Assembly: GCA_902525735.1 (NCBI GenBank)
Contig: CABZIF010000007.1
Coordinates: forward strand, 1 to 64,000
Reading direction: 5' to 3'
DNA length: 64,000 bases
Source: an uncultured SAR86 cluster bacterium
GTDB taxonomy: Bacteria > Pseudomonadota > Gammaproteobacteria > Magnimaribacterales > AG-339-G14
Shown here: positions 32,170 through 44,367 of the stretch, one piece after another
Position numbering within the stretch: position 1 is the first letter of the stretch
How the letters are laid out: the number at the start of each line of letters is the position of its first letter
Program-made: the position numbers and the translations under genes
The notes under the pieces: model-generated
What the model was told of the DNA's origin: nothing
Databases searched by the model: none
Seen by the model: the letters and a program-made list of their open reading frames with translations, nothing else

Positions 32170-32742
32170 ATGTCAAAAGTAGCAAAATTTAGAGAAATGA
32201 CCAAAGGAACTGCTGAAGATTATATTCCTATAGCCGAAGCTGCAATGGAACATGCGGTAAATCTTCCAGAAAGAATCATTCAGCACTTAGACATGCTTAA
32301 AGGTGATCATGGTGGATTTGCGGTTGATAGATATACCCATTGTCTTCAAACTGCCACAAGAGCTCTCAGAGATGGCCGAGATGAAGAATATGTTGTTTGT
32401 GCTCTTCTACATGATATTGGAGATATCTTAGCTCCAGCTAATCATGCAGACTTTGCTGCTACTTTATTAGAACCTTATATTTCTGAAAAAAACTTCTGGA
32501 TATTAAAACATCATGGAATTTTTCAAGGATACTATTTCTTCCACTTTCTAGGACTTGATAGGCATATGAGAGACAAATATAAGGATAGTGAACATTGGAA
32601 AGATTGTGTAGAGTTTTGTGCTCGGTACGATCAAAATTCTTTCGATCCTGATTATGATACCTTGCCGATTGAAACTTTCATGCCAATGTTAAAGAATGTT
32701 TTGTCACAGACAAAAAAATCTATCTACAAATCAGAAGTCTAA
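32170..32742 (+). CDS. HD-domain phosphohydrolase-like protein
   Basis: The 190-residue protein has an HD metal-binding core: His57 (THCLQTATRA), His81-Asp82 (LLHDIGD) and later His residues in NHADFAATLL and LKHHGIFQGYY. The arrangement resembles the HD enzymes related to PhnZ and myo-inositol oxygenase, which can be mixed-valent di-iron oxygenases; ordinary phosphohydrolase activity is the other choice. It has no signal peptide. Its stop interlocks with that of an SDR gene (CTAA). Confidence 0.8.
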   Translation: MSKVAKFREMTKGTAEDYIPIAEAAMEHAVNLPERIIQHLDMLKGDHGGFAVDRYTHCLQTATRALRDGRDEEYVVCALLHDIGDILAPANHADFAATLLEPYISEKNFWILKHHGIFQGYYFFHFLGLDRHMRDKYKDSEHWKDCVEFCARYDQNSFDPDYDTLPIETFMPMLKNVLSQTKKSIYKSEV

Positions 32743-33641
32743 CTAGGTTCTCCCTTTTTCTCTACTTGTTCGTCATGCATTTTTTTTGCAGCTACTAGAT
32801 CTGGCATAACCAAATTGAGTTTGTCTAAATCCCAAATATCATCACTCTTAATAGACTTAATCACTGCTGGTTGCTGCATAATTCCAACATTTCCTTGGGA
32901 TATATGAAAAATTTGATTGGTTATCTCATTAGCTTCTTCAGAACTAAGCCAAGCTATAACTGGGGCAATTTGTTGAGGGCCTTGTTTCCAATCATTTTCA
33001 TCAACTTCTCTGCCTGCTGCTTTCATTAAATCTATAGTCAGTCTAGTTGCGGCTCCAGGAGAAATTGTATTAACAGAACATTTATATTTAGCCATTTCCA
33101 TCGAAAGTGATCTTGAAAATCCAGCAATACCTGCTTTGGCCGCTCCATAATTAGTTTGACCAAAATTTCCTATTAATCCTGATACTGATGACATATTTAT
33201 AATTTTACAGTTCAGTCTATTTGTTTCTCTTATATAGCGTACAAAAGGTTGCGTGCAATTAAAGTGGCCCTTTAAATGAACAGCCATTATTGCGTCCCAA
33301 TCAGATTCATCCATGTTAAATAATGTTTTATCTCTTAAAATTCCGGCATTATTAACAAGAATATCTACAGCACCAAATTCGTTTAAAGCTGAGTCAAAGA
33401 TATTCTTACCTCCTTCGTAAGAATCTACACTTTCATAATTAGCTAAAGCTTCTCCCCCTAGAGAGGTTATTTCTTCAACAACTTCATCAGCTATTTTATC
33501 TTCACCGCTACCATCTGGATTTGCACCTAGATCATTTACTAAAACTTTTGCACCTTCTTTAGCCAAAAAAAGAGCAGTTTCTTTTCCTATACCTCTTCCA
33601 GCACCCGTGATTATTGCAACTTTATCCTTTAAACTAGACAT
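32739..33641 (-). CDS. SDR family 3-hydroxyacyl-CoA dehydrogenase-like protein
   Basis: This 300-residue short-chain dehydrogenase has TGAGRGIG (12-19), the longer acidic insertion VNDLGANPDGSGEDK, NNAG, and catalytic Ser (NMSSVSG), Tyr and Lys (NYGAAKAG). The insertion is typical of the dehydrogenase part of peroxisomal multifunctional enzyme 2, which acts in beta-oxidation of straight and 2-methyl-branched acyl-CoA. The C-terminal 60 residues are extra to the basic SDR fold. A GGGGGAG ribosome site precedes the ATG. It is divergent from a GPH transporter across 39 bp. Confidence 0.87.
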   Translation of the reverse strand: MSSLKDKVAIITGAGRGIGKETALFLAKEGAKVLVNDLGANPDGSGEDKIADEVVEEITSLGGEALANYESVDSYEGGKNIFDSALNEFGAVDILVNNAGILRDKTLFNMDESDWDAIMAVHLKGHFNCTQPFVRYIRETNRLNCKIINMSSVSGLIGNFGQTNYGAAKAGIAGFSRSLSMEMAKYKCSVNTISPGAATRLTIDLMKAAGREVDENDWKQGPQQIAPVIAWLSSEEANEITNQIFHISQGNVGIMQQPAVIKSIKSDDIWDLDKLNLVMPDLVAAKKMHDEQVEKKGEPS

Positions 33642-33680: not shown

Positions 33681-35135
33681 ATGAAAGATTCAATTGAAAA
33701 AGGTGTAAGCAATTTAAACTTAATACTGTATGCCTTTGGTTCAGGAACAGTAGGAATAAATTCTGTAATTTTTGGTGGGTGGATTTTATTTTATTACAAT
33801 CAAGTTTTGGGTCTCAGCGCTGTTCTCGCATCTACAGCATTAGGTATATCCTTAGTTTTCGATGCTGTTTCTGACCCTTTAGTTGGCGCTTGGTCAGATA
33901 GATTTAAATCAAAGTGGGGAAGAAGACATCCTTTTGTTTATTTGAGCATCATTCCTCTGGCATTGGGATTTTATTTTTTATTCTCTATTCCTTCATCAAC
34001 AGAACAAAATTTTCTTTTTTGGAAATTATTACTTTTAGTAATTTTAATAAGAGTTTCTTTAACTTTTTATGAAACACCAAGAGCGGCATTAGGACCAGAA
34101 TTAACAAAAGGGTATGACAGGAGAACATTTGTTACAGGTTGGTCATATGTAATGGGAGTCATGGGAGCAATAATTCTTAGTTATTTAATGTATGAATTTT
34201 TTCTTGTAGAAACAGAGGAATTTCAAAAAGATATGGCTTTTTTGAATCCAGTTTCTTATACGTATTTAGGGCTTTCATCAGCAATAATGATTATTTTTTT
34301 TGGTCTTATCTCTTGCTTAAGCACTCATAAATATATTCCAGAATTACACAAGCCAGAATCTATTAAAAATTTTTCATTCAATAAGCTTTTTCAAGAACTG
34401 CTTGAATGCTTTTCAAATAAATCCTGGTTGGCAATGTTAATTTCTGGGAGTTTTTTGGGATTACAAATTGGCATAAGTACAGGTGTCGGAGTCTATATAA
34501 ACAAATTCTTTTGGGAATGGACACCAGAAGTTTTGGCTCTTTTTCCGATTGTTTCAGGGATAGGTGCAATATTAGGAGCTATCTTGGCTGCTTCCATTGC
34601 AAATGGACAAGAAAAAAGGAACGTATGTATAACAGTTTTTGTTGTAACAATTCTTACTTCTCCTATTCCTTTAGCGCTCAGGTTATTAGATCCTTATACT
34701 TCAATTACTCTTTTTCCTGAAAACAATACAGATTTAATTTGGTGGATATTGATTCTTCACACAGGAATTGAAGATTTACTTAGAGCCATGGGTTTTACAT
34801 TAGTTATTTCTATGATTTACGATATTGTTGAGAATAGTCAAATAAATACTGGTAGAAGAGACGAAGGAATTTTTATGACTGGACCTGGTTTGATACAAAA
34901 AATTCTCTCTGGCTTAGGAATTTTTATATTAGGGCTTGTTTTGCAATACTTAAATTTCGATCCAAATATTGCAGCTAATGCTGAATCAAAACCTCCCATC
35001 AATGAATTAGTACTTTTCCAAATAACAGTTGGGCCCTTTTTAACTCTAATTGGAACATCATTCCTATTCCTCTACAACATTTCTAGAGATTCACACCATA
35101 AAGCTATTGGTTCATTGGGATACGAAGAAAAATAA
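33681..35135 (+). CDS. MFS transporter, glycoside-pentoside-hexuronide (GPH) type
   Basis: The 484-residue protein has about twelve hydrophobic segments and the GPH signature FDAVSDPLVGAWSDRFKSKWGRR near residues 65-88. GPH carriers take up sugars or other solutes with Na+ or H+; many marine members have unknown substrates. It starts a + strand operon with a rhomboid, a DUF3604 protein and a second GPH carrier. Its stop overlaps the rhomboid ATG by one base. No ribosome site lies before its ATG. Confidence 0.9.
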   Translation: MKDSIEKGVSNLNLILYAFGSGTVGINSVIFGGWILFYYNQVLGLSAVLASTALGISLVFDAVSDPLVGAWSDRFKSKWGRRHPFVYLSIIPLALGFYFLFSIPSSTEQNFLFWKLLLLVILIRVSLTFYETPRAALGPELTKGYDRRTFVTGWSYVMGVMGAIILSYLMYEFFLVETEEFQKDMAFLNPVSYTYLGLSSAIMIIFFGLISCLSTHKYIPELHKPESIKNFSFNKLFQELLECFSNKSWLAMLISGSFLGLQIGISTGVGVYINKFFWEWTPEVLALFPIVSGIGAILGAILAASIANGQEKRNVCITVFVVTILTSPIPLALRLLDPYTSITLFPENNTDLIWWILILHTGIEDLLRAMGFTLVISMIYDIVENSQINTGRRDEGIFMTGPGLIQKILSGLGIFILGLVLQYLNFDPNIAANAESKPPINELVLFQITVGPFLTLIGTSFLFLYNISRDSHHKAIGSLGYEEK

Positions 35136-35926
35136 TGTTTTTTCCAATTTCTGATGATAACCCTAGCAATACTTCTCCAGTTATTACTTACTCTTTAATT
35201 GGCCTTTGCTTGTTTGTCTTTTTTTTACAGATACTTTCAGAAATGAATCCTTCCATTTATTATAATTTTGGATTTATACCCTCAAATTTTTTTAATTCAA
35301 CCTCATTATTAGAAGCATTTTTTCCAGTGATAACGTCTATGTTTGTTCATGGGGGTTTCGCTCATATTATTGGAAATTTACTTTACCTCTGGATATTTGG
35401 CGATAACGTTGAAGACTCTATGGGCAAATTGAGATTTATTATTTTTTACATCCTTTGTGGAATCTCAGGAGCTCTTCTCCAGGGAATTTTTGATCCTACC
35501 TCAAACATACCGATGGTGGGCGCAAGTGGAGCTATTGCCGGAGTATTAGGAGCTTATTTATTATTATTTCCTAGAGCAAATGTTAGGTGTTTAATTTTCA
35601 TTATTATTTTTATTCAAATGATTAGAGTGCCAGCATTTATAGTTTTAGGTATATGGATTTTAGGTCAATTCTTCAGTCTTCCAGGTTCGCTTGATTCATC
35701 TGGTGGAACAGCTTATTTAGCTCACATTGGAGGATTTATAACAGGAATGATTTTGATACCATTTTTTAAAAAAACCAATGTAAGATTACTACAAGAAAAA
35801 AATAGTGTTGCATGGGTTGCTGAATCTGGTTTCAATTTTAGACAAGATAAAAACAAGATTAAAAATGATGATTTATTAAGTAAATTTATTGAAGAATCAG
35901 AAGAAGAGGTAAGAAGAAGAAAATGA
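35135..35926 (+). CDS. Rhomboid family intramembrane serine protease
   Basis: Rhomboids cut membrane proteins within the bilayer. The 263-residue protein has six or so membrane segments. The nucleophile Ser is in GASGAIAGVLG, the catalytic His in AHIGGFITG, and the HGGFAHIIGNLLYLW segment carries the conserved His/Asn of the second helix. A charged C-terminal tail follows. It overlaps the DUF3604 gene by four bases (ATGA), so the products are made together; DUF3604 or the carriers could be its substrates. Confidence 0.92.
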   Translation: MFFPISDDNPSNTSPVITYSLIGLCLFVFFLQILSEMNPSIYYNFGFIPSNFFNSTSLLEAFFPVITSMFVHGGFAHIIGNLLYLWIFGDNVEDSMGKLRFIIFYILCGISGALLQGIFDPTSNIPMVGASGAIAGVLGAYLLLFPRANVRCLIFIIIFIQMIRVPAFIVLGIWILGQFFSLPGSLDSSGGTAYLAHIGGFITGMILIPFFKKTNVRLLQEKNSVAWVAESGFNFRQDKNKIKNDDLLSKFIEESEEEVRRRK

Positions 35927-38166
35927 AGATATTTTTAAAATCTATTTTTTGGTTAGTAAGCTTTCTTTTAACGGTCTTAATTTTAATTTCTGCATACTAT
36001 TTTGCTTTTTTTTATAATTTTTTTGGATCCCTAGAAACAGCTGGAAAAAATTTAAATAAACCTTATCCAAGTTATCTTCTTCAATCAAAAATTCAGTCTC
36101 AGTTAAAACACACTAATACAGAAAAACAGATTGTATTTGGCGATACTCATGTTCATTCTACCTATTCAACAGATGCATTTTTATGGAGTCTTAAAAACTT
36201 TAATGGAGAGGGACCTCATTTAATGGCTGAAGCTTGCGATTATGCAAGATTTTGTTCCGCTATAGATTTTTGGGTAAATACTGATCATGCTGAAGCAAGC
36301 ACCCCGAGAAAGTGGGCTGAAACTATTAAAGCAGTCCAAAACTGTGAAGCCGTCAACAAGGGCGATAGAGCCAAAGATTTAATAAGTTTTGTTGGTTATG
36401 AATGGACCCAGATAAATCCTGAAAATAAAGATGACCATTACGGTCATAAGAATGTACTTTTTTTGGAAACAGATGAAGAATTGCTTCCAAAAGTTCCCTT
36501 TGGAGCTGCAGGATATACCTCGGCGGGATTTAGAGATCGTGAAGGACTAGTCAGCGCAAAGATAAATATGCTTTCCGCTTCTGTAGTCGATTTTTCAAAT
36601 AGAAATAGATACGCGGATTTCATAGCTTTTTATGAAGAAGTAGTAGCTAATCCAGATTGCGATCCTAATGATATGAATTATTCAGACTGTTATAAATCTG
36701 TCTTTACTCCTAAAGATTTATTTTCAATTTTAAAAACCGTTGATTCTGACTCAATAGTAATTCCACATGGAAATACTTGGGGTTATTACACCCCCACAGA
36801 ATCAAGCTGGGATAAACAACTACTAAACGACATGCATGATCCTTCGATGCAAATTTCAATAGAGGTTTTTTCAGGACATGGGAATTCTGAAGAGTTTAGA
36901 AATTGGACAGGGACTATTTCTCAAAACGGATTAAAAACTTGCCCTCGGCCAACAAAAGATTATTTACCTTCATGTTGGAGGGCAGGAGAGATAATTCAAG
37001 AGAGATGTTTAAATAATGGATCCAGTGAAGAAATTTGTTTAGCTAGGGCAGAATTAGCAAGACAGACTTACATAGATGGTGGCCAATATGGCCATTGGTC
37101 GGTAATGGGAGCTGAGCCAGCAGATTGGCTTGATTCTGGCCAATGTAAAGATTGTTTTGTGCCCGCTTTTAATATGAGACCGAATGCTTCCGTACAATAT
37201 GCATTAGCATTAAGAAAATTTGAAGGAGATAAAATTAATTCTTTTGATTTTGGTTTTATTGCATCAAGTGATAATCATAGAGCTAGACCTGGAACAGGTT
37301 ATAAGGCTATTGATAGACTTGTTACAACTGAAGCAAACGGCCCATCAAATGAATTTTTTTATAGCAATATTTATCCCAAAGAAGAAAAAACAGATATGCC
37401 ATGGGAAGTTATTCCAAGTGAAATTAATACTGCCTCCGAATTAACTATGTTTGAAGCTGAAAGACAATCTTCCTTTTTTACTACTGGAGGATTAGCAGCA
37501 GTACATGTATCGAAAAGAGATAGAGAAGGTATTTGGGAAGGCTTTAAAAATAAAGAAACTTATGCAACAAGTGGCCCAAGAATACTATTATGGTTTGACG
37601 TTATAAATTCAAAAAATGGTAGAAAGCCCATGGGATCAAAAATAAAAATGACTGAAAATCCAGTTTTTGAAGTTAAAGCAGTTGGTTCTTTTAAACAAAA
37701 ACCCGGATGTCCCGATTTAGGTTTGTCAAAAGCCGAAAACGAAAAAATCATGAAACTTTGCAAAAACGAATGTTTCAACCCATCTGACGAAAGAAGAGAA
37801 ATAACAAGAGTAGAAGTGATAAAAATTACTCCTCAAAATTATAACGATGAGCCAGTAGAAAATTTAATAAAAGACGTTTGGAAAGTTCATAAATGCAAGT
37901 CTAATTCTCAAGGAGAATGTAGATTTAGATTTTCAGATCCAGATTATTCCAAAAACGGAAGAGATAGCCTTTATTATGTTAGAGCGATTGAAGAGCCCTC
38001 TTTGAGAATTAACGGCGGTAATCTAAGATGTGATTATGACGAAAACGGAAATTGTAAAAAAGTTAATATTTGTCACGGTGGGTATCAGACTGATAGAGAT
38101 GATAATTGTACAATGTTATCTGAAGAAAGAGCTTGGTCTTCTCCGATATATATAAACAAAATTTAG
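35923..38166 (+). CDS. DUF3604 family protein (PHP-like hydrolase), membrane anchored
   Basis: The 747-residue protein has an N-terminal membrane anchor (about 5-30), placing the rest in the periplasm. At residues 74-85 it has DTHVHSTYSTDA, the first metal motif of PHP-type phosphoesterases; further metal ligands are likely in NTDHAEAS, VIPHGNTWG and SSDNHRARPG. DUF3604 proteins are related to PHP hydrolases and their substrates are largely unknown. At least 14 cysteines, many in pairs in the second half, suggest disulfides. It is co-translated with the rhomboid and flanked by two GPH carriers. Confidence 0.88.
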   Translation: MKIFLKSIFWLVSFLLTVLILISAYYFAFFYNFFGSLETAGKNLNKPYPSYLLQSKIQSQLKHTNTEKQIVFGDTHVHSTYSTDAFLWSLKNFNGEGPHLMAEACDYARFCSAIDFWVNTDHAEASTPRKWAETIKAVQNCEAVNKGDRAKDLISFVGYEWTQINPENKDDHYGHKNVLFLETDEELLPKVPFGAAGYTSAGFRDREGLVSAKINMLSASVVDFSNRNRYADFIAFYEEVVANPDCDPNDMNYSDCYKSVFTPKDLFSILKTVDSDSIVIPHGNTWGYYTPTESSWDKQLLNDMHDPSMQISIEVFSGHGNSEEFRNWTGTISQNGLKTCPRPTKDYLPSCWRAGEIIQERCLNNGSSEEICLARAELARQTYIDGGQYGHWSVMGAEPADWLDSGQCKDCFVPAFNMRPNASVQYALALRKFEGDKINSFDFGFIASSDNHRARPGTGYKAIDRLVTTEANGPSNEFFYSNIYPKEEKTDMPWEVIPSEINTASELTMFEAERQSSFFTTGGLAAVHVSKRDREGIWEGFKNKETYATSGPRILLWFDVINSKNGRKPMGSKIKMTENPVFEVKAVGSFKQKPGCPDLGLSKAENEKIMKLCKNECFNPSDERREITRVEVIKITPQNYNDEPVENLIKDVWKVHKCKSNSQGECRFRFSDPDYSKNGRDSLYYVRAIEEPSLRINGGNLRCDYDENGNCKKVNICHGGYQTDRDDNCTMLSEERAWSSPIYINKI

Positions 38167-38172
38167 TAACAA

Positions 38173-39597
38173 ATGACTACAAAAAAATTACCATTTCTAA
38201 CCAAATTTTTATACGGATTTGGATCGATGTCTTATGGAATTAAAGATAATGCTTTTGCGTATTTTTTGTTATTTGTTTACGTACAAATATTTGGCCTAGC
38301 TCCAGATTTAGCTGGGTTAGCGATTTTACTAATGCTAGTTTTTGATGCTTTCTCGGATCCCCTAGTTGGATATTTTTCAGATAGACACAGATCTTCTTGG
38401 GGAAGAAGACACCCATATATGTATTTTTCAGCGGTCCCAGTCAGTTTGTCTTTTTTTCTTCTATGGGATCCACCCGAAACATTGACTCAAATGCAACTTT
38501 TTTTCTACTTATTGGGCGTAGGTGTTTTTATTAGAACAGCAATTACTTTCTATGAAATACCTAGTACAGCTTTGGGCCCTGAACTATCTAAAGATTATGT
38601 AGAAAGAAGTTCTTTACTTTCTTTTAGATATTGGTTTGGTTGGTGGGGAGGACTTTTAGTTTGGAACTCACTATGGATATTCGTAGTTTATAGCAGCTAT
38701 ACAGGAACAACAGATGCAAGATATTTACCCGAAACATGGAAAATTTATGGATTGGTTTGTAGTGTTGTTATGTTTATAGCAATTATGGTCACAGCTTTAG
38801 GCACACACAAACACATTAAGGATTTACATTCCCCTGAAATAAGGAAAATTTCTTTAAAACGAACTTTAAACGAACTTTGGGAAACAATCACAATTAGTAG
38901 AGATTATTTAGTTTTATTTTTAGCTATGATTATTACTAGTATTGCATCAGGAATAGCAACAAATTTAACTTTATTTTTTTATAGTTATTTTTGGGAATTT
39001 ACTCCTTTAAATATTCTTACTATTGGCTTAACACTATTTTTAACACCCTTAGTGGGATTGAAAGTCTCACCATATCTAGCAGCAAAATTTGGAAAGAGAA
39101 CAACTATCCTGTATTTATTTATGTTTGCTTTCGTTGCTGAGAATCTGATTATTCTTTTGAGGATTTTAGATCTTATTCCAAGTAATGATTCAAACTTAAT
39201 TTTACCCTTGGTTTTAATTTTTCATTGGATTGCAGTTAGTGCTCAAATAATTTCCTATACAACTCTTGCTTCTATGGTTTTTGATACTGTTGAAGAAGTT
39301 GAAAAGAAAACTGGAAGAAGAATGGAGGGGACTTTACTTGCTGCAAGGTCTTTTGCAGCTAAATGTATGAGTGGTGCTGGTGCTTTTTTTGCTGGTCTTA
39401 TTCTTTCTTACTCATATTGGCCAAAAGGCGCAGTTGCGGGAGAAGTAGAATCCAGCATTTTAAATAACGTCGGTTTGCTAGCTATAGCAATCTCTGCTGT
39501 TCTTTGGATATCAGCAATTTTTGTTTTTTCTAAAGTAAGAATGACAAGATCGACTCACGAAGAAAATTTAGGAGAATTAAATTACTCTAATGATTAA
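38173..39597 (+). CDS. MFS transporter, GPH type (second copy)
   Basis: The 474-residue protein has about twelve membrane segments and the signature FDAFSDPLVGYFSDRHRSSWGRR near residues 56-78. It is a paralogue of the carrier at 33681-35135 but clearly diverged, so probably not a recent copy. It lies 6 bases after the DUF3604 gene and overlaps the bolA-like gene by 8 bases. Context suggests that it moves a DUF3604 substrate or product. Confidence 0.9.
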   Translation: MTTKKLPFLTKFLYGFGSMSYGIKDNAFAYFLLFVYVQIFGLAPDLAGLAILLMLVFDAFSDPLVGYFSDRHRSSWGRRHPYMYFSAVPVSLSFFLLWDPPETLTQMQLFFYLLGVGVFIRTAITFYEIPSTALGPELSKDYVERSSLLSFRYWFGWWGGLLVWNSLWIFVVYSSYTGTTDARYLPETWKIYGLVCSVVMFIAIMVTALGTHKHIKDLHSPEIRKISLKRTLNELWETITISRDYLVLFLAMIITSIASGIATNLTLFFYSYFWEFTPLNILTIGLTLFLTPLVGLKVSPYLAAKFGKRTTILYLFMFAFVAENLIILLRILDLIPSNDSNLILPLVLIFHWIAVSAQIISYTTLASMVFDTVEEVEKKTGRRMEGTLLAARSFAAKCMSGAGAFFAGLILSYSYWPKGAVAGEVESSILNNVGLLAIAISAVLWISAIFVFSKVRMTRSTHEENLGELNYSND

Positions 39598-39898
39598 AGA
39601 TGAAATTGAAAATAAGTTAAATGATGACTTAAATCCCTGGTTTCTAGAAGTTGTTAATGAGTCACCAAATCATAATGTGCCTGATGGAGCAGAATCACAT
39701 TTTAAAATAATTATTGTTTCAGAAAAATTTATTGATTTTAGGGCGGTAAAAAGACATCAATTAATTTATTCAATTTTAAATGAAGAAATGAAGAAGATTC
39801 ATGCAGTAGCCATACATCCTTTCACTCCAGAAGAATGGAAAGAAAAAACTGGAGAAAATTTAGATTCTCCCAAATGTCTTGGCGGAGGAAATGATTGA
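39590..39898 (+). CDS. BolA family protein
   Basis: BolA-like proteins work with monothiol glutaredoxins in iron-sulfur trafficking. The 102-residue protein has the class II KH-like fold pattern, with ESHFKIIIVSEKF, the helix-turn RAVKRHQLIYSIL and HAVAIHPFTPEEW. The conserved C-terminal His is in AIHPFTP. It starts inside the end of the GPH gene and overlaps trhO by 8 or more bases. Confidence 0.9.
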   Translation: MIKDEIENKLNDDLNPWFLEVVNESPNHNVPDGAESHFKIIIVSEKFIDFRAVKRHQLIYSILNEEMKKIHAVAIHPFTPEEWKEKTGENLDSPKCLGGGND

Positions 39899-40781
39899 TA
39901 AAAAAAGATCCCAAGGATTTTATACATATACATTTTATAGCTGTATAAAAATAAAAAATCCTTCTTTTCTAAGACAAATAATAAGAAAGCAAGCCAATAA
40001 TTTAAAAATCATTGGCACAATAATTCTTACCCAAGAAGGAATAAACTCTACCATTTCATCAAAATCAAAAAATAATCTTAATATGATGATTTCTCTATTA
40101 GAAAATCAATTTGGATCAATTAGATTTCGTGAATCTTTTTCAAAGAAAAAACCTTTTAAAAGACTAAAAGTTAAAGTTAGAGAAGAGATAGTTCCTTCTG
40201 GAACTAATATTTTAATTAAAAAAGATTTAAAAAATTATATAGACCCAGAAAATTGGAATGATTTTATTGAAGATGAATCTGTTTTAGTTATAGATGTAAG
40301 AAATAATTATGAAGTAGAAGTTGGGACTTTTATAAACTCCATTTCACCAGAAACAAACACATTTAAAGAATTCAACAATTTCATAGAAAAGTCAAAAAAA
40401 AATTTTAAAAATAAGAAATTAGGAATTTTCTGCACAGGTGGAATTAGATGTGAAAAAGCTTCTGCTCTTTTTAAAGAGAAAGGAATTGAGGATGTATATC
40501 AACTTGAAGGCGGTATATTGAATTATTTCAAAAACAATAAAAATAAAGATAATTTTGAAGGAGAATGTTTTGTTTTTGATGATAGGGTAACAGTAGATAA
40601 AAATCTAAATCCTGGTGGCTTCTTTCAATGTTTTGCTTGCAGAAGGCCCTTGTCCAAAGATGATTTGTCTAGGCCAGAATACACAGAAGGTATTTCTTGC
40701 CATAATTGTTTAAATGAAAAAACAGATGAAGATAGAGAAAGGTTTGCTGATCGACATAAGCAGAACTTATTAAAAAAGTAA
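39891..40781 (+). CDS. trhO: tRNA uridine(34) hydroxylase
   Basis: TrhO (YceA, UPF0176) hydroxylates wobble uridine 34 in tRNAs using oxygen and prephenate-independent chemistry. The protein is about 296 residues: an N-terminal acylphosphatase-like part (TILTQEGINSTIS), a rhodanese domain with the catalytic Cys in FCTGGIRCEKA, and a C-terminal cysteine cluster (CFACRRPL, CHNC). The open frame starts at a TTG (39879), but ATG at 39891 has GGAGG just before it, so I prefer that. It overlaps the bolA-like gene. Confidence 0.9.
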   Translation: MIDKKRSQGFYTYTFYSCIKIKNPSFLRQIIRKQANNLKIIGTIILTQEGINSTISSKSKNNLNMMISLLENQFGSIRFRESFSKKKPFKRLKVKVREEIVPSGTNILIKKDLKNYIDPENWNDFIEDESVLVIDVRNNYEVEVGTFINSISPETNTFKEFNNFIEKSKKNFKNKKLGIFCTGGIRCEKASALFKEKGIEDVYQLEGGILNYFKNNKNKDNFEGECFVFDDRVTVDKNLNPGGFFQCFACRRPLSKDDLSRPEYTEGISCHNCLNEKTDEDRERFADRHKQNLLKK

Positions 40782-40784
40782 ATT

Positions 40785-43232
40785 ATGTCCTTGATAAGCT
40801 TAATCTCTTCCAATCCAAAAAAAAATTTACTTTTATTATTTTTTTTGACCATTCTTCTAGGAACAGGCATTTCAAATTTTAAACTAGATGCTTCTTCAGA
40901 CACTCTTCTTTTAGAAAATGATCCCGATTTAAAACTTTTTAGAGAAAATTCAGAAAAGTATGGTTCAAATGATTTTTTAATTGTTACTTTTACTCCGAAA
41001 GATGAGCTTTTATCCGAGTCTTCGATCTTACTTATAAAAAAAATTATTAATGAGATTGCATCCTTCAATAGAGTTGAGAGTGTTTTATCTATACTAGATG
41101 TTCCATTATTAGAAAATAATCCAAACATATCTCTTAGTGATGTTGCAGAAAATGTTGAGACACTAAATTCCGAAAGTCCTAACTTAGAACTAGCAAAGAG
41201 AGTGTTTTCTTCAAATGATGTTTATCAAAACCTTTTAATAAGCGAAGATCTCAATACGACTGCTTTCCAGGTTACTTTAAAAAGAAACATAAATTATGAA
41301 AATTTAATAAATCAAAGATATGCAATTTACGACCTAACAACCCCAGATAAAGAGCAGAGACTTACAGATATCAATGAACTTATTGAGCAAGAAAAAAATA
41401 TGGTTTCGATAGAAGATGAAAAATTGGTGTCTTCTATGAGAAATCTTCTTGACACTTATCAAAATTTTGGTGAATTTTTCTTAGGAGGCGGCGCAATGAT
41501 TACTGTTGATACCATAAGATTTATTTCTCAAGATTTGACCGTCTTCGGAGTTTCAGTTCTTTTAATTTTTACATTTGTTCTATCTTTTATATTTAGAAAT
41601 TTAATATGGGTATTCATGCCACTTTTCACAGCATTAGTTACTTCAGCCATCTGTATGGGATTAGTAGGATGGTTTGGTTGGAAAGTTACAGTCGTCTCTG
41701 CAAACTTCATATCAATTCTTATGATAATCAGTATTTCGTTAATGGTTCACTTAATAGTTAGATATCAGGAATTAGGAATTTTAGATAAAGAAAGTGATCA
41801 AAAAAACATAATTAATACAACTTTAAGTCAAATGTTTTTACCTTGTCTTTACACTGCCCTGACTACAGTAGCTGCCTTCGCGTCTTTGGTTATAAGCGAT
41901 ATTAAGCCAATAATTGATTTTGGATTAATAATGGTCTTAGGAATTTTTATTACTTTTATTTTTGCATTTATTTTATTCGGTTCGTTTATGCCTTTGATAA
42001 AAAGAAAATCTTTAAATTTAGGTATTGACAAGTCAAAGGGAATAACTCTCTACATACATAGTTTTGTTGAAAAAAATCCAATTTCTATAATTTTTTTATC
42101 TTGCATGATTTTCGTTATTTCAATTTTTGGAATTTCTAAATTAACTGTAGAAAATAAGTTTATTGATTATTTCAAACCAACCACAGAAATTTATAAAGGT
42201 TTGTCCTTGATTGATCAAAAACTTGGTGGTACTGCCACACTTGACGTTATCATTGATGCACCTGAACTGTTAAAAGAAGATTCTTCAGATGGATTCGACG
42301 ATGAATTTGATGATGATTTTGGTGAATTCTTAAATGATGAAATTGATGAACAAGGTTATTGGTTTAATTCTGATAATCTGGCTTACTTGGAAACTATTCA
42401 TGATTATTTGGAAAATAGACCAGAAATAGGAAAAGTTCTTTCCGTATCAAGTGGAATTAAATTAGCTGAAATTGCAAATAATGGTGACAGATTAACCGAT
42501 CTTGAGCTAGCATTGCTGAGAAAACTACTTCCTGAAGATATTGAATCTCAACTGTTATCTGCTTACATCACAAACGGGGATAATCAAGTTCGGCTCTCAG
42601 CAAGAGTTATTGAGTCTTATGAGGGACTCAATAGAAAAGATTTAATCGATTCAGTTAAAAATGATTTAGAGACAAAATTTAATATATCTAGCGATAAATA
42701 CAAATTGACAGGTATTTCAGTTATTTACAATAATTTATTACAAAGTTTATTCGGCTCACTTATTGGCAGTATTGGTATCGTTTTTATATCAATTTTCATA
42801 ATGTTTCTGTTTCTTTTTAAATCAATAAAATTAGCCTGCATCGGTATGCTGCCAAATTTCTTAGCTGCTGGGGCAGTGATCGGAACCATAGGCTTAACAG
42901 GCATTCCTTTAGATGTAATGACAGTAACAGTAGCAGCAGTAAGTATTGGAATGGGTGTGGATAATACGATCCATTATATTTTTAGATTTAAAAAAGAATT
43001 CCTAAAAAGTAAAGATTATGTTTTGAGCACAAAAAAAACACACTCAACCATAGGTCGTGCTCTTTTTTATACTTCAATTACAATTATTTTAGGATTTTTG
43101 GTGCTAGCAACTTCAAACTTTAGCCCAACAATATTCTTTGGAATCTTCACTTCTTTGTCTATGATAATGGCTATTGTAGGATCTCTTTTTTTATTACCGG
43201 TCCTACTTACAAAATTAAGAGCTATGAATTGA
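40785..43232 (+). CDS. RND superfamily transporter, HAE3/MMPL type
   Basis: The 815-residue protein has two halves, each with a membrane helix, a large periplasmic loop and a group of five or so helices, as in HAE3/MMPL exporters for hydrophobic compounds such as hopanoids. Membrane-core motifs are ISISLMVHLIVRY in the first half and IGMGVDNTIHYIFRF in the second. The second periplasmic loop contains a very acidic stretch, about residues 499-522 (FDDEFDDDFGEFLNDE). It starts 3 bases after trhO and ends one base before the racemase gene, so export and acyl-CoA chemistry are physically linked. Confidence 0.9.
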   Translation: MSLISLISSNPKKNLLLLFFLTILLGTGISNFKLDASSDTLLLENDPDLKLFRENSEKYGSNDFLIVTFTPKDELLSESSILLIKKIINEIASFNRVESVLSILDVPLLENNPNISLSDVAENVETLNSESPNLELAKRVFSSNDVYQNLLISEDLNTTAFQVTLKRNINYENLINQRYAIYDLTTPDKEQRLTDINELIEQEKNMVSIEDEKLVSSMRNLLDTYQNFGEFFLGGGAMITVDTIRFISQDLTVFGVSVLLIFTFVLSFIFRNLIWVFMPLFTALVTSAICMGLVGWFGWKVTVVSANFISILMIISISLMVHLIVRYQELGILDKESDQKNIINTTLSQMFLPCLYTALTTVAAFASLVISDIKPIIDFGLIMVLGIFITFIFAFILFGSFMPLIKRKSLNLGIDKSKGITLYIHSFVEKNPISIIFLSCMIFVISIFGISKLTVENKFIDYFKPTTEIYKGLSLIDQKLGGTATLDVIIDAPELLKEDSSDGFDDEFDDDFGEFLNDEIDEQGYWFNSDNLAYLETIHDYLENRPEIGKVLSVSSGIKLAEIANNGDRLTDLELALLRKLLPEDIESQLLSAYITNGDNQVRLSARVIESYEGLNRKDLIDSVKNDLETKFNISSDKYKLTGISVIYNNLLQSLFGSLIGSIGIVFISIFIMFLFLFKSIKLACIGMLPNFLAAGAVIGTIGLTGIPLDVMTVTVAAVSIGMGVDNTIHYIFRFKKEFLKSKDYVLSTKKTHSTIGRALFYTSITIILGFLVLATSNFSPTIFFGIFTSLSMIMAIVGSLFLLPVLLTKLRAMN

Positions 43233-43233
43233 T

Positions 43234-44367
43234 ATGGGCCCTCTAAAAGGAATAAAAATTATAGAATTTTCTGCTTTGGGACCTGGACCTTTCTGTGGAA
43301 TGGTTTTAGCAGATTTAGGTGCTGAGGTTATCGTTATCGATAGATTAGAATCTGCCGGACAAAAATCTAAAACTGATATTGCAAGTAGAGGAAAAAAATC
43401 TATAGCAATTGATCTAAAAAAGAAAGAGTCAATAAATCTCATCAAGGATATCGTGAAAGACGCTGATGTTGTCATTGAAGGACTAAGACCTGGAAAAATG
43501 GAAAAACTAGAAATGGGACCTTCTGATTTTTTTAAAGTTAATCCAAAGCTAATTTACGGAAGAATGACTGGGTGGGGCCAATTTGGTCTTCATGCATCTG
43601 ACCCTGGACACGATATAAATTATATTGCTTTAACTGGAGCGCTTTCTTCAATAGGAATTAAAAATAGCCCCCCAACCCCTCCTTTAAATTTAGTTGGAGA
43701 TTTTGGCGGGGGAGGAATGCTCTTGGCAATGGGAATCTGCGCTGCATTGGTAGAAGTTGCTAAATCTGGGAAAGGTCAAGTAATTGATTCAGCAATGACC
43801 GACGGCTCTGCGCTGCTAATGTCTATGATGTATGGATTTTATTCGGCAGGAATATGGACAGATCACAGGGAGTCAAATCTACTTGATGGAGCTGCTCATT
43901 TTTATGGTTGTTATGAATGTAAAGATGGAAAATATGTATCTGTTGGTTCAATAGAGCCACAATTTTATGAAGAGTTGGTAAAAAGATTAGAACTTGATCG
44001 AGAAAAATTTAAAGATCAAATGGATAGATCTAGATGGAGTGAACTTAAGAAAATAATGGAAAAAAAGTTCATGGAAAGAACACGCGATGAATGGTGCAAG
44101 GTTATGGAAGGGGGAGATATTTGTTTTGCACCTGTCCTTTCTTTAGAAGAATCAATAAACTATAAACATAACAAAGAAAGAGAAACTTTCATTGATATTG
44201 ATGGTGTTATTCAACCTGCTCCTGCGCCTAGATTCTCTAATACCCCTGGAAAAATTCAACATTCACCGGTTGAAAAAGGCAAACATACAAGGGAAATTAT
44301 AAAAAGTATTGGAAAAGAAAACTTAATTGAAGAACTTTTAAAGTCAAAAATTATTGCTGAAGGTTAA
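43234..44367 (+). CDS. Alpha-methylacyl-CoA racemase (family III CoA-transferase fold)
   Basis: The 377-residue protein keeps both racemase catalytic residues at the standard numbers: His126 (DPGHDINYI) and Asp156 (LVGDFGGG). It would epimerise (R)- and (S)-2-methylacyl-CoA, needed for beta-oxidation of phytanyl, pristanyl or steroid side chains. A CoA-transferase role is less likely given these residues. It follows the RND transporter by one base and overlaps tatD, on the other strand, by 17 bases. Confidence 0.92.
   Translation: MGPLKGIKIIEFSALGPGPFCGMVLADLGAEVIVIDRLESAGQKSKTDIASRGKKSIAIDLKKKESINLIKDIVKDADVVIEGLRPGKMEKLEMGPSDFFKVNPKLIYGRMTGWGQFGLHASDPGHDINYIALTGALSSIGIKNSPPTPPLNLVGDFGGGGMLLAMGICAALVEVAKSGKGQVIDSAMTDGSALLMSMMYGFYSAGIWTDHRESNLLDGAAHFYGCYECKDGKYVSVGSIEPQFYEELVKRLELDREKFKDQMDRSRWSELKKIMEKKFMERTRDEWCKVMEGGDICFAPVLSLEESINYKHNKERETFIDIDGVIQPAPAPRFSNTPGKIQHSPVEKGKHTREIIKSIGKENLIEELLKSKIIAEG

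Follow-up and report, generated by a model that had tools for sequence, protein, structure and literature searches.

SAR86 is an abundant uncultured lineage of the ocean whose carbon sources are poorly known, and four closely packed genes in one of its genomes raise the question of whether they form a dedicated uptake system. The genes lie at positions 33681–39597 of a 64,000-nt stretch (the window) of a SAR86 assembly of 1.18 Mb in 16 contigs. Encoded in this order and all on the plus strand are a GPH/MFS_2 carrier (GPH1), a rhomboid intramembrane protease (RHO), a cysteine-rich DUF3604 protein and a second GPH/MFS_2 carrier (GPH2). An earlier note on this DNA proposed that the DUF3604 protein hydrolyses a substrate in the periplasm, that the carriers import the products, and that the rhomboid releases or controls a membrane component. 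Our analysis upheld this model in part: a conserved neighbourhood, a PHP fold, metal-type residues and an Asp pair in the carriers speak for it, while the dedicated role of the rhomboid and an obligatory linkage of the genes were not borne out. We conclude that a hydrolase-plus-carriers cassette of SAR86 is probably genuine and that its rhomboid neighbour is in all likelihood a bystander, and we give a probability of about 0.5 to the reading that an uptake cassette of a hydrolase and two carriers lies around an older resident rhomboid-BolA-RND block, without the rhomboid being dedicated to it.

According to this reading, a membrane-anchored periplasmic metallohydrolase of the PHP fold would be flanked by two cation-coupled GPH carriers, usually with HD-oxygenase-like and SDR genes on the left and, in the loci read from one family (f3), with a GH3 gene as well. 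Most likely, the DUF3604 enzyme would act in the periplasm, hydrolysing an organic substrate whose products would be taken up by one or both carriers and oxidised inside the cell. The cassette would have settled around the older block in the common ancestor of two SAR86 families (f1 and f3), making the rhomboid a reading-frame neighbour that most likely keeps a general role in membrane-protein quality control. Our searches of open-licence PMC articles showed no such system, nor anything that joins DUF3604 with SAR86; DUF3604 is mentioned in a gene table of a Chlamydia transposon study.

Gene order and conservation of the locus

Profile matches confirmed the four open reading frames (ORFs) in the order claimed: GPH1 at 33681–35135, the rhomboid at 35135–35926, DUF3604 at 35923–38166, and GPH2 at 38173–39597. 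The overlaps of stops and starts described earlier are present at the GPH1/rhomboid (1 bp, TAATG) and rhomboid/DUF3604 (4 bp, ATGA) junctions, and DUF3604 and GPH2 are separated by a 6-bp gap. These junctions give little backing to the conclusion that the four are made together, as such spacing is ordinary in the window and the tight run goes beyond 39597, up to 44367, through the genes for BolA, TrhO, an RND exporter, and a CoA-transferase. GPH2 and BolA overlap by 8 bp and, taking the listed TTG start, BolA and TrhO share 20 bp, followed by gaps of 3 bp (TrhO/RND) and 1 bp (RND/CoA-transferase). Among 58 window ORFs (65 listed minus 7 nested or overlapping ones removed by hand), 26 of the 37 same-strand neighbour pairs are no more than 10 bp apart, with 12 overlapping; the overlaps are therefore weak evidence for a four-gene unit, and spacing was dropped as proof of one.

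The neighbourhood survey that the earlier note had called for was carried out on 203 genomes of the SAR86 order, in which we denote families f1–f4, genera g, genomes G, and loci L. Gene content around DUF3604 of the window's type (type A) is not random in two sister families, f1 and f3, which have the block HD-SDR-GPH1-RHO-DUF3604-GPH2-BolA-TrhO-RND in common. The rhomboid was matched in 31 of the 40 f1 genomes and stands directly upstream of a complete or partial type-A DUF3604 in all 31 (counted by hand from coordinates). For f3, the same arrangement was found in 21 of the 23 readable genomes among the matches listed. At least 22 f3 genomes have a DUF3604 match of 1059–1106 bits, 19 of them with the rhomboid directly upstream by coordinates, and the rhomboid is placed likewise in G169 and G174, where DUF3604 is cut. 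The f3 count omits three genomes whose contig ends after the rhomboid gene (G148, G154, and G177), two whose contig begins at DUF3604 (G165 and G157, the latter completing the 22), and the broken G151, in which the rhomboid gene is in opposite orientation.

Nine f1 genomes have no rhomboid match. Co-loss of the cluster was considered for them and dropped: a contig breaks off within or at the cluster in G011, G014, G025, G029, and G030, and in G003, G027, G034, and G038, where the HD gene is unmatched and RND is unmatched or weak, the region is unassembled or gone.

Beyond HD on the left, f1 and f3 have different gene orders, which marks an edge of the conserved stretch at HD; to the right, the order BolA, TrhO, RND, CoA-transferase, TatD is kept in both families. 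Between HD and GPH1, an SDR gene is present in the loci of f1 genera g1, g3, and g4 and of f3, and has no match in those of f1 g2. All three type-A f3 loci read in this comparison carry a GH3 gene between HD and SDR, joined in L113 by a Rieske oxygenase gene (GH3/Rieske genes at L110 3233–5668 and L113 4190–5548). A search of a plasmid collection gave no match, and a scan of named genome contigs for close relatives returned six loci, all from SAR86.

The DUF3604 protein and the two carriers

The DUF3604 protein (747 amino acids, aa) matches PF12228 with 98.2 bits (cut-off 20.4). The genome's two canonical copies, which are shorter (687 and 662 aa) and without its cysteine-rich regions, score 714 and 671 bits. 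The match consists of two stretches, the best covering profile positions 317–590 of 591, and was split into three pieces when the genome was searched. As claimed earlier, the protein is rich in cysteine (20 residues) and has a membrane anchor, a single N-terminal hydrophobic segment at residues 3–21. With K2 before this segment and K6 within it, the positive-inside rule predicts an N-in/C-out orientation. Judged by sequence, the protein is a divergent, cysteine-rich, membrane-anchored relative of PF12228, with a putative periplasmic location.

The PHP-type motif reported for this protein is also present. Residues D74, H76, H78, D84, D121, H122, E160, H282, E314, D450, and H452, among others, are invariant in all 30 rows of an alignment with hand-chosen rows (12 type A, 11 other SAR86 types, 5 non-SAR86, and 2 canonical). 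The earlier note had named random gene content in relatives and an absence of conserved metal ligands as outcomes that would speak against its model; given the conserved neighbourhood and these invariant metal-type residues, neither applies.

The AlphaFold2 model of the protein (predicted local distance difference test score 89.4, predicted template modelling score 0.90) comprises an N-terminal helix, a PHP domain, and a C-terminal beta-sandwich. Foldseek returned two chains at E <= 0.001, both of PDB entry 3e38 (E 9.6e-5), which is BVU_3505, a predicted two-domain PHP-like phosphoesterase. The two are alike in the PHP fold, in the HxH / DH / E / H / DxH residues, and in the beta-sandwich that follows the PHP domain in the DUF3604 model. 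VIA-align 2, a re-ranking of the Foldseek matches rather than an independent search, aligned the model with 3e38 over 239 residues at 3.6 A (Z 17.1); among the 50 entries shown, the next thirteen, which we take to be PHP or PHP-containing proteins, scored Z 12.7 to 7.8, and the fifteenth Z 4.8. A PDB search with the sequence gave no match up to E 1. As modelled, then, the protein has a PHP metallohydrolase fold with conserved metal-type motifs, and hydrolysis is the activity that the family would predict. The likeness to CehA/McbA is weak and confined to the N-terminal PHP motif region (NF038032 23.4 bits, far under the curated cut-off of 80). CehA acts on carbamates, which gives no hint of the substrate of the window protein.

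The two carriers are diverged as claimed, with 30% identity to each other. GPH1 and GPH2 match PF13347 with 224 and 252 bits (cut-off 27), and the nearest solved relatives of both are MFSD2A, a lysophosphatidylcholine:Na+ symporter, and the melibiose carrier MelB. All 14 aligned rows, which cover both carriers, have an Asp pair (D61/D65 in GPH1 numbering) that aligns with the DxxxD of MelB, where the pair binds the cation. In contrast, the sugar-site Asp19 of MelB faces Gly in GPH1 and GPH2, and its Asp124 faces Glu, so that a galactoside substrate is not indicated. Both proteins also missed the TIGR00792 cut-off of 231.35 (129.2 and 165 bits). By analogy with their family, the carriers would work in the direction of import.

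The rhomboid and the history of the block

The rhomboid of the window (PF01694 120 bits, cut-off 22.6) has orthologues that occur apart from the cassette. In family f4 the rhomboid was matched in 16 genomes, of which, among the matches listed, only G201 has a cysteine-rich DUF3604, on another contig. In the three f4 neighbourhoods read (L128, L129, and L145), the rhomboid frame overlaps BolA by 8–11 bp, RND follows, and there is no DUF3604 or GPH gene. In genus g10 of f2, read in two of six rhomboid-bearing genomes, BolA-RND lies downstream of the rhomboid, separated from it by a 156-aa gene in L144 and by a longer insert in L127. In f2 g14 (L130) a different gene comes after the rhomboid before the contig ends, and the f2 loci L131–L134 have BolA-RND without a rhomboid. 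Each of the four SAR86 families has loci in which RND was read next to BolA, whether TrhO is present or not. In a class-level sample, the rhomboid was matched at E <= 1e-30 in 82 of 369 genomes, 3 from SAR86 and 79 from elsewhere; 28 of 28 loci read from the latter had no cluster gene and no BolA within 1.5 kb on each side, and hence SAR86 is the only group in which the BolA neighbourhood was seen.

The rhomboids of SAR86 make up one clade (support 100/99), as do the RND proteins of f1 and f3 (98/97) and their type-A DUF3604 proteins (100/99); f2 copies from a different site are a weakly supported sister group of the last (86/87). Since f1 and f3 group together in the RND tree and type-A DUF3604 is a single clade, one origin suffices. 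In the simplest scenario, the cassette would have arrived once, in the ancestor of f1 and f3, around a rhomboid-BolA-RND block already resident there. The locus illustrates how a conserved, overlapping neighbourhood can mislead, its conspicuous protease tracing to an apparently older neighbourhood.

Several points weigh against this reading. The tree of the rhomboids alone does not join f1 with f3, and the preference for one gain over two losses is no more than a parsimony argument. A PHP fold alone is no proof of activity. The GPH pair beside a cysteine-rich DUF3604 was seen in this one clade only: at all 20 loci read for other copies (L065–L067, 12 further SAR86 and 5 non-SAR86 loci, some bounded by contig ends), no ORF had GPH1, GPH2, or the rhomboid as its best match. 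A tail of the rhomboid that is specific to f1 and f3 may point to some adaptation of the protease to its cluster. Finally, two genomes of f3 genus g17, G152 and G153, have an intact type-A DUF3604 away from the cluster and among other genes, similar in the two genomes (L179 and L178 in G152, L177 in G153). Both are 750-aa open frames that group with the three f3 type-A proteins in the tree (Shimodaira–Hasegawa approximate likelihood ratio test 99). The G152 copy sits on a different contig from the cluster, which there reads HD-GH3-SDR-GPH1-RHO-GPH2-BolA-TrhO-RND with 62 bp from the rhomboid gene to GPH2, and G153 has no rhomboid match. The hydrolase gene can thus leave the carriers, and linkage is not obligatory.

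This weakens the cassette reading and strengthens an alternative in which functionally unrelated genes have stayed together by inertia, as SAR86 genomes are small, with high general synteny, and rearrange little. The tight spacing throughout the window and the housekeeping genes to the right, which keep their order too, are consistent with such inertia. We nevertheless consider it rather unlikely, because the conserved stretch ends at HD, because two carriers of the same family bracket the enzyme, and because the f3 loci read also carry GH3 beside the cluster.

The rhomboid itself appears catalytically intact from its sequence, its Ser-His dyad of S131 (in GASG) and H197 being kept in all 14 aligned rows. 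It is related to GlpG by sequence and scored below the cut-offs of both the GlpG equivalog (TIGR04239, 41.6 vs. 250) and the rhombosortase (TIGR03902, 31.5 vs. 84) models. A charged C-terminal tail (window 35779–35923) is common to the compared f1 and f3 copies and is absent or of another form in f2, f4, and outgroup copies. Rhomboids favour substrates with a periplasmic N-terminus (PMC7232013). With its N-in/C-out orientation, the DUF3604 anchor points in the wrong direction for a usual rhomboid substrate and was dropped as a standard one; the carriers do contain helices oriented suitably for cleavage.

These data bear on the proposal that the rhomboid is a dedicated component that detaches DUF3604 from the anchor or regulates the carriers, which we regard as improbable. 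Its position directly upstream of DUF3604 in all 31 f1 genomes with a rhomboid match and in 21 of the 23 readable f3 genomes, its intact dyad, and its family-specific tail would agree with such a role. So would the joint interruption of the rhomboid and DUF3604 genes in G023 (L064 7164–10201), where the rhomboid is a 229-aa frame and DUF3604 is in pieces while GPH1 is open (483 aa), by decay or assembly error. There is also a precedent in the Bacillus subtilis rhomboid YqgP, which was shown experimentally to cleave the transporter MgtE (PMC7231995); in the present case the evidence is gene neighbourhood, and the BolA-RND neighbourhood of the rhomboid looks older than the carriers. Against a dedicated part stand the f4 loci with RHO-BolA-RND and no cassette, the wide occurrence of the rhomboid elsewhere without these neighbours, the 20 other cysteine-rich DUF3604 loci without a rhomboid, and the misoriented anchor, although carrier cleavage is unaffected by the last argument.

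The tail and the persistence of the rhomboid between both carriers in G152, even without DUF3604, are the only positive hints of a special role and may reflect mere descent. They could also be accommodated by recruitment of the resident f1/f3 rhomboid as a dedicated regulator once the cassette had landed beside it, its cytosolic tail recognising one or both GPH carriers and the protease cleaving at an out-to-in helix when the hydrolase gives no substrate. The G152 arrangement fits this idea, which we hold to be very unlikely; if true, it would describe a transport module that carries its own control by intramembrane proteolysis. A hydrolase and two carriers around a bystander rhomboid remains our preferred account.

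Other DUF3604 copies and neighbouring genes

The cysteine-rich DUF3604 clade was matched at E <= 1e-20 in 104 of the 203 SAR86-order genomes, with up to six matches per genome, pieces included (both among the matches listed). It was found in 6 of 369 class-sample genomes at E <= 1e-60, 4 of them non-SAR86, and in 1 of 398 phylum-sample genomes, the window's own. That genomes of one SAR86 family have several paralogues of a cysteine-rich PHP protein, and that two carriers bracket one of these, offers a concrete lead in the search for a substrate.

A trio of DUF3604, a PPIC/SurA-like gene, and HupE/UreJ_2 looks recurrent: it occurs with a canonical copy on contig C8 of the window's own genome (L070 5476–9301) and with cysteine-rich copies at L107 6521–10901 and L108 8712–12911. 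HupE/UreJ proteins are putative metal transporters. The type-A protein might accordingly be seen as a periplasmic maturation, binding, or metal-handling protein rather than a catabolic hydrolase. The trio, found at two of the five non-SAR86 copies (for the other three, part of the neighbours were run through Pfam), would suit such a function. The full set of invariant PHP-type residues and the catabolic surroundings of other-type copies, with AMP-binding (CoA-ligase type, L065), carboxylesterase-family (L117 and L119), and, by eye, crotonase-like genes, make it decidedly improbable.

Another cysteine-rich DUF3604 lies between nusB/ribH-like and purA/hflCK-like genes (named by eye) in f2 and f3 (L112, L115, L116, L118, L120, and L123). 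The f2 and f3 copies at this site are not grouped in the tree, which does not include L115.

Downstream of GPH2, all on the plus strand, are BolA (39590–39898; PF01722 87.6 bits), a TrhO-type rhodanese, or tRNA uridine hydroxylase (39879–40781; NF001133 253 bits, cut-off 170), an MMPL/RND exporter (40785–43232; PF03176), and a family III CoA-transferase (43234–44367; PF02515 279 bits), which closes the tightly spaced run. On the left, an SDR oxidoreductase on the minus strand (32739–33641; PF00106 151 bits) is divergent from GPH1 at a distance of 39 bp, and is preceded by the 190-aa HD-domain protein on the plus strand (32170–32742; PF01966 29.6 bits). The latter matched PhnZ (4mlm, E 8.4e-6) and missed the cut-offs of TIGR03276 (Phn-HD, 34.8 vs. 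214.6) and of the TmpB model (29.6 vs. 300), suggesting a distant relative of the PhnZ/TmpB HD oxygenases. Relatives of the HD protein in f2 g12 (L141 9778–10350 and L146 10653–11225) adjoin genes for DUF3089, an alpha/beta hydrolase, and a GPH carrier, the families being assigned with Pfam on L141 only. Those in f2 g8 (L143 9234–9791) and g13 (L142 8718–9275, by eye) adjoin a gamma-butyrobetaine-dioxygenase-like gene.

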